Shown: positions 3,778-41,261 of the stretch, piece after piece | Numbering within the stretch: the first letter of the stretch is position 1 | Layout of the letters: every line of letters starts with the position of its first letter | IMG/VR virus record: IMGVR_UViG_3300036820_000029 | Location: 1 to 46,647 of that record | DNA: 46,647 nt | Reading direction: 5' to 3' (one strand) | From: a virus | Program-made: the position numbers and the translations under genes | Notes under the pieces: generated by a model | The model's input: only the letters and a program-made list of their open reading frames with translations | Told to the model about the DNA's origin: nothing | Databases searched by the model: none

Positions 3778-3813
3778 ACACCGTGCCAGCCTGGTGTCAA
3801 GCTGGCACGGTGT
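3778..3813 (-). terminator. terminator hairpin
   Basis: A 13-bp perfect stem (ACACCGTGCCAGC, 3778-3790, with 3801-3813) closes a 10-nt loop. It separates the upstream leftward genes from the 3739-3098 group. Confidence 0.75.
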
Positions 3814-3915: not shown

Positions 3916-4155
3916 TCAGCGTCCACCCTTGACCAGTCCCTTCAGCTCCGCTTTGATGCGCCTAGCGTCATCACCGCGCCATGACGTGGCGTTGGACAAG
4001 AAGTACAGCACGACGCTGTCACCGTGATCCAGCCCGAAGCTGTCGCTGACCGTGTCGAGCGCGCCCATCGCCTCTAGGTACGGTTCGGCCGCGTAGTTCA
4101 CCTTGGGCCAGGTCTGCCGGATTTCCTTGGCGATGGTCGATAGGGATCGGTTCAC
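3916..4155 (-). CDS. conserved actinophage protein of unknown function, 79 aa
   Basis: GTG 4155 is preferred over ATG 4215 because AAAGGAG stands 5 bases before it, and the stem-loop at 4176-4200 lies between. The sequence has the SLSTIAKEIR start, PYLEAM middle and YFLSNATSWRG end that I associate with a family widespread in actinophages. No function is known to me. It looks soluble and helical. Confidence 0.75.
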   Translation of the reverse strand: MNRSLSTIAKEIRQTWPKVNYAAEPYLEAMGALDTVSDSFGLDHGDSVVLYFLSNATSWRGDDARRIKAELKGLVKGGR

Positions 4156-4175
4156 AGGTGCTCCTTTGAGTTGGT

Positions 4176-4200
4176 GCCCAGCTAGTTGCGCTAGCTGGGC
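4176..4200 (-). terminator. stem-loop between leftward genes
   Basis: GCCCAGCTAG (4176-4185) pairs with CTAGCTGGGC (4191-4200) across a 5-nt loop. It starts 8 bases past the stop of the 4208 gene and just before the ribosome site of the 3916 gene. It could be a partial terminator or an mRNA-stabilising structure. Confidence 0.55.
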
Positions 4201-4207
4201 TATCAGA

Positions 4208-4372
4208 TCAGACATGGGTCTCCAGCATCTCGGCGTACTGCCAGCACTCTTCCACCGTGTCGAACGTGTCCATAGGCACGGGGTAGCTGGGCTGATAGTA
4301 CAGGGTGTAGGCGTCATCCGTCGTGACGTACACCACCTGGTAGGCCGGGTAGCTGGTGTCGGTGTAGTGCAT
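4208..4372 (-). CDS. small tyrosine-rich protein, 54 aa
   Basis: ATG 4372 follows AAAGGAGCGTC. The product is unusually rich in tyrosine (MHYTDTSYPAYQVVYV start) and ends in an acidic helix. It is the first gene downstream of the long structured leader at 4391-4542, so its expression may depend on that RNA. Function unknown. Confidence 0.65.
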   Translation of the reverse strand: MHYTDTSYPAYQVVYVTTDDAYTLYYQPSYPVPMDTFDTVEECWQYAEMLETHV

Positions 4373-4390
4373 GACGCTCCTTTGGTGGGT

Positions 4391-4542
4391 GAGGTACCGG
4401 GCTGACCGCTGGCCCTGTCTTCATGTCGGGTGGTGCTACCCGGTACCTCTAACAGCAGAGCAGGGAGTTTAGGAAGGACTCTACGAGCTTTTGAAAGCCC
4501 ACCCCGGAGGGTGCCTCGCTTCTGGCCTGCTCTGCTGTTGTG
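4391..4542 (-). ncRNA. structured RNA: riboswitch-like leader or small RNA
   Basis: A promoter at 4576-4549 places the start of transcription at about 4542, immediately before a perfect 14-bp long-range stem (4526-4539 with 4451-4464). Inside are a 5-bp hairpin with a UCCG tetraloop (4513-4500) and a further small stem (about 4500-4485). A second domain is closed by an 11-bp stem (4439-4449 with 4391-4401) with a 37-nt loop. The ribosome site of the 4372 gene follows. The UNCG-type loop, C-UCCG-G, exists only on the minus strand, which supports this orientation. No known RNA class is recognised. Confidence 0.6.
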
Positions 4543-4548
4543 ATACTG

Positions 4549-4576
4549 ACTCTACGCCCTTCCCGTGCTTTGTCAA
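4549..4576 (-). promoter_or_regulatory. promoter TTGACA-16-TAGAGT for the structured RNA
   Basis: TTGACA (4576-4571) overlaps the stop codon of the 4573 gene. A 16-bp spacer leads to TAGAGT (4554-4549). The predicted start is about 4542, at the foot of the first RNA stem. Confidence 0.7.
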
Positions 4577-5610
4577 GCGCTGACACCAGTGTTCTGTGTT
4601 CTGTGTTCTGTGTTCTCCGGAATCTGGTACCCACGCACGCCGTTGCTGGTCTGCGTCTCCACGCCGACCTGTCGCAGCAGGCCAGCGATCTCTATGTCAC
4701 CGATCCTGCCAGGCATGAAGTCGAACCCCTGGATACCGGCCGACCGAATCTCATCACTGGTCACACGCATGCCCGGCAGTGCGGCTGTAAGAGCCGTGAG
4801 GAGCATTTCAGCTCGCGAGGGTAGCGGGCTAGCACTCAGACCTGTGAAGATCTCCAGTTCAGCCTCAAGCCACTGATCAGCGAACCCGCCTACGACGGCG
4901 ACCGCGTACATCGGCGCGTACTTGAGCTGGTGCCGAGGGTCACGATCCTTACCTAGCAGCGGAGCGATTACCGGCGTCCGCTTGAGCACCTTCTGAGCGT
5001 CGCCCGACTTGAGCCACTCGCCTACGTCTTTGCCAGCACGCGCCATGGTGGTCTCATGGAGTACCGACACCCACGTGTCTACCGGTAGTGCCTTCTTGAG
5101 CACGATCGTGCACGAACGGTCGGCGAGCGTGTCGTAAGCCCTGCCGATGCCCGCTGTGGCCATGGCGTTGTAGACAGGCATGATGACGGACTTGCCCGAA
5201 CGCGTCGCCATCACGGTGCCGTTCTGTGCGTAGCCAGCATTGAGGATCGCTACTAGCTCAGCACTAGCACCCCTCGCCCTGCCCATCGTCCCGAAGAGCA
5301 AGTCACGCTCGTCAAGCCCGATGATTGAGTTGGGATACTCATCGATCCAGTTCTTGACGCTGCTCTGTGTCGTGTAGGCCACCGTGATGCTTTCCGGGCA
5401 CAGCGCGAGTGTTGATTCCATCGCGACTGTCTTCCCGCAGCCCTTCTCGATGGCTGCCAGGTCGAGGCGCGCGAACGCCGGGTAGTGCTTGAATATGTTG
5501 GTTGCTGCCGCCCACGTAGCCAGCATGATCTGCTGTGAGCGTGAGACAGTGACGAAGTTGCCAAGCAGGTCGTAGGACAGACCTAGCTCGCTAGCTTCGA
5601 TGTCAGACAT
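4573..5610 (-). CDS. DUF3631-like P-loop ATPase, 345 aa
   Basis: A Walker A motif AIEKGCGKT (about 53-61), a Walker B-like IIGLDE (about 96-101) and a later block NGTVMATR ... AGIGRAYDTLADRS (about 131-166) match the DUF3631 group of phage ATPases thought to act as helicases or helicase loaders. It is probably cytoplasmic and DNA-acting. It is separate from the primase-helicase, so the phage may have two DNA-dependent ATPases. The start, ATG 5610, overlaps the upstream gene. The extreme C-terminus is encoded by a 7-bp tandem repeat (4588-4615), so that end may vary between isolates. Confidence 0.8.
   Translation of the reverse strand: MSDIEASELGLSYDLLGNFVTVSRSQQIMLATWAAATNIFKHYPAFARLDLAAIEKGCGKTVAMESTLALCPESITVAYTTQSSVKNWIDEYPNSIIGLDERDLLFGTMGRARGASAELVAILNAGYAQNGTVMATRSGKSVIMPVYNAMATAGIGRAYDTLADRSCTIVLKKALPVDTWVSVLHETTMARAGKDVGEWLKSGDAQKVLKRTPVIAPLLGKDRDPRHQLKYAPMYAVAVVGGFADQWLEAELEIFTGLSASPLPSRAEMLLTALTAALPGMRVTSDEIRSAGIQGFDFMPGRIGDIEIAGLLRQVGVETQTSNGVRGYQIPENTEHRTQNTGVSA
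4588..4615 (-). repeat. heptanucleotide tandem repeat in a coding end
   Basis: About four copies of a 7-bp unit (TGTGTTC on the plus strand) lie at 4588-4615 in the last codons of the DUF3631-like gene. Because 7 is not a multiple of 3, each gain or loss of a unit changes the C-terminal frame. Confidence 0.8.
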
Positions 5611-41232: not shown

Positions 41233-41261
41233 AGGATAGCACAAAGCCCCGAGCTTGTCAA
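41233..41261 (-). promoter_or_regulatory. leaderless promoter TTGACA-17-TATCCT with -35 in a terminator loop
   Basis: TTGACA (41261-41256) straddles the loop of the terminator at 41245-41275; a 17-bp spacer ending in TGC leads to TATCCT (41238-41233), six bases (CAGGCT) and ATG 41226. It should drive the unit containing the DNA polymerase. Confidence 0.75.

Follow-up and report, generated by a model that had tools for sequence, protein, structure and literature searches.

A probable structured leader RNA behind a Pleft-like promoter in an uncultivated actinobacterial phage

Results

Genomic setting

The window, by which we mean the whole stretch of DNA analysed here, is a record of 46,647 bases from IMG/VR in which structural genes run rightward and DNA-metabolism genes leftward. 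Its terminase is actinobacteriophage-like (34-41% to phages of Arthrobacter, Streptomyces and others), and the source is an uncultivated actinobacterial phage. The record is probably incomplete, because the family match of a helicase-like open reading frame (ORF) at the right end is confined to the C-terminal part.

The leader, apparently non-coding, occupies the gap between a 345-aa ORF upstream and a 54-aa gene downstream (Table 1). The 345-aa protein carries a GCGKT-type motif without a Pfam or PHROG match, a search for its relatives returned none, and judged by eye only it resembles a DUF3631-type helicase-like protein. The 7-mer GTGTTCT occurs in four exact copies in the 3' end of its gene (4589-4616), just 5' of the promoter. 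Relatives of the 54-aa gene were sought in IMG/VR, phages and bacterial genomes, and none was found; the 79-aa gene that follows belongs to a family common in actinobacteriophages, including the right arms of Cluster A. A strong terminator would close the unit, making it a self-contained operon with a length of only about 765 nt.

That terminator includes the -35 box of the next promoter. Composite terminator-promoter elements of this kind occur on the minus strand at 3813-3773, 41280-41240 and 44650-44590, each combining a strong hairpin, whose loop or 3' arm contains the -35 box, with a -10 box directly after the T-run. At minus-strand position 41261, a start codon stands about 6 nt past the -10 box, suggesting a leaderless gene. 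Clear promoters of this phage other than that of the leader RNA lead into short leaders, or directly to start codons.

Table 1 Features of the leader and its operon
Feature	Position	Strand	Details
345-aa ORF	5610-4573	minus	stop codon overlaps -35 box
-35 hexamer TTGACA	4571..4576	minus	overlapped by stop codon of 345-aa ORF
-10 hexamer TAGAGT	4549..4554	minus	16-nt spacer from -35
Pleft-like block TAGAGTCAGTATCACAACAGCA	4533..4554	minus	-10 box and initially transcribed bases
Domain 1	4451..4539	minus	perfect 14-bp stem (4526-4539 / 4451-4464) around ~60 nt
UCCG-loop hairpin ACCC-UCCG-GGGU	4501..4512	minus	within domain 1; pair probability only ~0.45
Small hairpin GGGCUU-UCAA-AAGCUC	4485..4500	minus	within domain 1; rival pairing 4500-4476
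Domain 2	4391..4449	minus	perfect 11-bp stem (4439-4449 / 4391-4401); inner pairs extend stem
Ribosome site AAAGGAG of 54-aa gene	4377..4383	minus	mostly unpaired
54-aa gene	4208..4372	minus	first of operon; tyrosine-rich (9/54)
79-aa gene	3916..4155	minus	second of operon; phrog_13953
Intrinsic terminator	3778..3813	minus	16 bp, 4-nt loop, T-run

Two adjacent perfect stems

The two domains fill almost all of the 170-nt space ahead of the ribosome site of the 54-aa gene. Their closing stems, with the lengths of 14 and 11 bp described in an initial annotation of this DNA, have 100% matched arms and are separated by 1 base, and chance is an improbable source of two such stems side by side. Apart from the 14-bp stem, the 46.6-kb window has no perfect inverted repeat of at least 14 bp spaced by 20-90 nt; among 2,000 dinucleotide-shuffled versions of the leader, 5 contained a repeat of at least 11 bp and 2 contained one of at least 14 bp.

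The shuffling comparison that the initial annotation had proposed for the RNA 4542-4370 came out clearly in favour of structure: -72.5 kcal/mol against -54.7 +/- 3.9 (z = -4.56), with none of 200 shuffles as stable. For the first 155 nt, z was about -5.5. Closing stems of both domains have pair probabilities of 0.8-1.0. The UCCG hairpin and small stem that had been placed inside the 14-bp stem are indeed predicted, but the interior of domain 1 is unsettled: the UCCG hairpin (4512-4501) and the adjacent one have a pair probability of ~0.45 and face competing pairings. Domain 2 is followed, as had been noted, by the ribosome site of the tyrosine-rich small gene, where only G4380 and G4379 pair, in a weak 2-bp contact, and the start codon is unpaired. 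When distinct places in the window are ordered by how anomalous their fold is, the leader comes 9th, and several of the more anomalous ones are single terminator-type hairpins. The opposite strand is at least as stable (-80.8), so the strand was assigned by the promoter and not by fold stability.

A Pleft-class promoter and predicted start

The promoter proposed in the initial annotation, TTGACA-16-TAGAGT on the minus strand (4576-4549), agrees with consensus at 10 of 12 positions. Transcription is predicted from sequence to start near 4544-4541; stem 1 opens 2-5 nt past this start, which fits the earlier placement of the start at the foot of the 14-bp stem. The -10 region AAGGGCGTAGAGTC (4561-4548, minus) recurs inside domain 1 as AAGCTCGTAGAGTC (4490-4477; 12/14), a copy that has no -35 box.

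A word-7 BLAST search with the leader as query gave one telling match among the comparison loci, newly recognised here, between TAGAGTCAGTATCACAACAGCA and TAGAGTGAGAATCACAACAGCA of Cluster A phages, where the latter sits at the beginning of the right-end leftward transcript. The block is identical to the Cluster A Pleft start at 20 of 22 positions (IronMan/Pukovnik-type), lies in exact register with the -10 box and has no close competitor across the window (the runner-up scores 16); of the 16 bases past the -10 box, 14 are those of the Cluster A2 form. The site as a whole, CAGTATCAC, has the make-up by which we define a Pleft-type promoter, namely TTGACA, 16-18 nt, TAGAGT and then G(A/T)GAATCAC. 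In D29, the L5-type genome used for sequence comparison, one of the tandem promoters at the right end carries the shorter form GTAGAGTGAGAATCAC.

When 2.9 million viral contigs of IMG/VR were scanned, the exact pattern TAGAGTNNGNATCACAACAGCA occurred in 9 contigs, all of 50-54 kb, and the looser pattern TTGACA-N-TAGAGTNNNNATCACA in 25, comprising 21 contigs of 48-54 kb with Pleft-like starts and 4 AT-rich chance matches. From their size, layout and sequence, we infer that the 48-54-kb contigs all belong to Cluster A. Four of the comparison genomes (L107-L110) carry the block at both of two tandem promoters, an arrangement that identifies it as a promoter-start module. Past the common start, the bodies of the Pleft-like contigs fall into several unrelated sequences, so it is no surprise that the body in the window is unlike those of Cluster A.

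Searches for homologues

Searches of phages, plasmids, IMG/VR and GTDB/bacterial genomes gave no homologue of the leader RNA. Rfam cmscan at curated scores reported only two tRNAs in the window and no family at the leader, and weak Rfam matches close to the leader fell far under their cut-offs; a T-box or known riboswitch identity was rejected on this basis. Neither ARAGORN nor cmscan detected a tRNA signal in 4100-4700. Earlier statements that the element is not a tRNA and has no matching class thus both stand.

Several candidates were considered and set aside. The only close terminase relative (83%) is on a 4-kb contig that ends short of the leader, and bacterial genomes held no close terminase relatives. 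The pattern of the 14-bp arms had one match (L017), which is coding and was judged to be chance. Model R1, a search model built on the single leader sequence, matched a tandem GC-rich repeat in L077 and L079, which was rejected, and gave weak matches in the phage genomes W05, W06 and W02 and in L113, none at Pleft and all <19 bits, which we take as chance. A 29-nt match in M. abscessus prophages (E 0.7) is a ribosome-site coincidence ahead of a tail gene. Two loci that share the 79-aa and DUF7178 genes with the window (L138, L139) have no such leader.

Comparison with known phage RNAs

In L5, D29 and StarStuff, the region from Pleft to gene 89 yields the most abundant phage RNA, a stable species of ~500 nt (PMC5712189). 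Its start has been mapped, and it is processed to smaller species, several of 100-500 nt having been seen (PMC5712189). About 90% of L5 Pleft transcripts stop ahead of gene 89 without a canonical terminator, the cloned Pleft region is toxic to M. smegmatis, and the distal half of the L5 region resisted deletion (PMC5712189).

The window locus resembles Cluster A Pleft in its TTGACA-N-TAGAGT promoter and near-identical first bases (D29 having the shorter GTAGAGTNAGNATCAC), in the placing of a non-coding leader ahead of a leftward small-gene operon, in a leader end without a canonical terminator and, for many Cluster A phages, in the presence of a phrog_13953 gene farther downstream in that arm. 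It differs in its RNA body, which is unrelated in sequence and measures ~150 nt rather than 300-500; BLAST against Cluster A Pleft leaders returned only the 22-nt start block, and R1 returned nothing. The -35 region of the window reads CTTGACAAAGCAC, and the L5-type repressor operator CTTGACAGCCACC is absent there. Whereas the window leader is strongly folded (z about -5), Cluster A leaders tested against shuffles mostly gave z between -1.8 and +1.6, with values down to -3.0 confined to L107 and L108, downstream of the first of their two tandem promoters. The strong fold is therefore a feature of the window phage itself.

Cluster A Pleft leaders (D29, L020, L106, L111 and L112) contain a tRNA-like acceptor stem and T-arm, which in D29 reads GGGTAGC...CCAGGTTCGATTCCTGGCTACCC. 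The piece scores 19.8 bits against an Rfam tRNA cut-off of 29, and ARAGORN reports no tRNA. Placed by D29 distances, it appears to lie within the undeletable half of the L5 region (PMC5712189). Matches to the Cluster A leader occur in 126 phage records, and almost every listed record leaves the leader unannotated. This tRNA-like 3' part is absent from the window leader.

The Cluster M-type Mycobacterium abscessus prophage prophiGD54-2 also has a folded non-coding stretch before a phrog_13953 gene (z = -7.3). There, very strong hairpins stand before small genes (1810-2300 of the locus) and are repeated 5' of the phrog_13953 gene and of the next gene. In contrast to this repeated long hairpin with conserved flanks, the window has a promoter-linked two-domain structure, and the two share no sequence similarity. 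Parallels also exist in Cluster A prophages with parABS, which have RNA-based replication origins (PMC7157519). Those origins involve a promoter-driven phage non-coding RNA, as we propose for the window, but adjoin parABS, which is absent from the window as far as the record goes.

Discussion

The fold statistics, the sequence and the Pleft promoter and start match together give good support to a structured RNA, either a leader or a small RNA, made from a promoter of its own. We favour, with moderate confidence, the reading that a short leftward operon under a Pleft-class early promoter opens with a structured, non-coding 5' leader RNA. Initiation by host RNA polymerase would occur at ~4542, and the RNA would enter the 14-bp stem of domain 1 within a few bases; 1 base beyond it, the 11-bp stem would close domain 2. 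Almost the entire leader would then be folded, with the ribosome site of the 54-aa gene left mostly accessible. The result would most likely be a 5' segment that resists nucleases and keeps the early transcript abundant, and the leader may persist as a separate small RNA, like the Pleft RNA in L5 and D29. The 22-nt match is short, and could mean that the promoter alone is shared and the leaders are unrelated.

The possibility of a separate RNA could be taken further, with the folded part of ~150 nt as the product itself, freed by processing or termination to act in trans on host or phage RNAs while the downstream small genes are read at a lower level. Release of this kind has a precedent in the L5 Pleft RNA, ~90% of which stops before gene 89 (PMC5712189), and the window leader, like that of L5, lacks a canonical terminator, having instead a compact two-domain fold of its own. 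We nevertheless consider a trans-acting product unlikely: there is no 3' end signal past domain 2, a good ribosome site and a gene follow within 20 nt, and the body has no sequence relation to Cluster A RNA bodies. At the DNA level, the inverted repeats could instead be a site for protein binding or replication, such as an RNA-primed origin of the type in parABS Cluster A prophages (PMC7157519). The arms are perfectly Watson-Crick without G-U pairs, and the opposite strand folds equally well. However, the known origins adjoin parABS, and the possibly incomplete record shows no ParA-type (PF13614) or integrase/resolvase family, which makes an origin less likely; the promoter register, too, favours RNA. 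A DNA element is accordingly improbable in our view.

Function could also be lacking altogether, the promoter being real and the folded leader a neutral spacer. The leader is an orphan with no homologue found, and other places in the window are equally folded, though several of these are terminators. Against this, stems of such length and perfection would hardly arise next to each other by chance, and arms that served no function would hardly have stayed perfect; we regard a neutral spacer as very improbable. Least probable of all is a cis-regulatory switch, either a riboswitch or an attenuator with a leader peptide. A 17-codon frame (4502-4449, VGFQKLVESFLNSLLCC) has Cys as its last two codons, which lie in the 3' arm of stem 1, and stops exactly at the end of that stem, where a ribosome would block domain 2. 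Its ribosome site is poor, however, and frames of at least 17 codons occurred in 794 of 2,000 leader shuffles, so its length is not above chance. Nor does the leader hold an Rfam riboswitch, a T-box or a terminator hairpin; no stable stem locks away the ribosome site ahead of the 54-aa gene, and because this site is mostly open, on/off control of translation is not evident. Of the initial description as a riboswitch-like leader or small regulatory RNA, the structured leader or small RNA is upheld, whereas the riboswitch-like part is unsupported, there being no aptamer family, no terminator hairpin in the leader and no sequestered ribosome site.

Cluster A phages keep the promoter start but differ in their RNA bodies. 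Retention of the Pleft start in a distant phage with a different, much shorter and much more strongly folded leader suggests that it is the promoter and start block that are kept, not the RNA sequence. It is rather unlikely, though of wider consequence, that the window encodes an orphan two-domain RNA of ~150 nt, driven by a Pleft-class promoter outside Cluster A and acting in trans early in infection. If the trans-acting reading were true, the Pleft promoter module would be a portable launcher for unrelated, fast-evolving phage RNAs of regulation or host takeover. The leader of the window phage offers a compact comparison system for the roles of early leader RNAs such as those from Pleft in L5 and D29.
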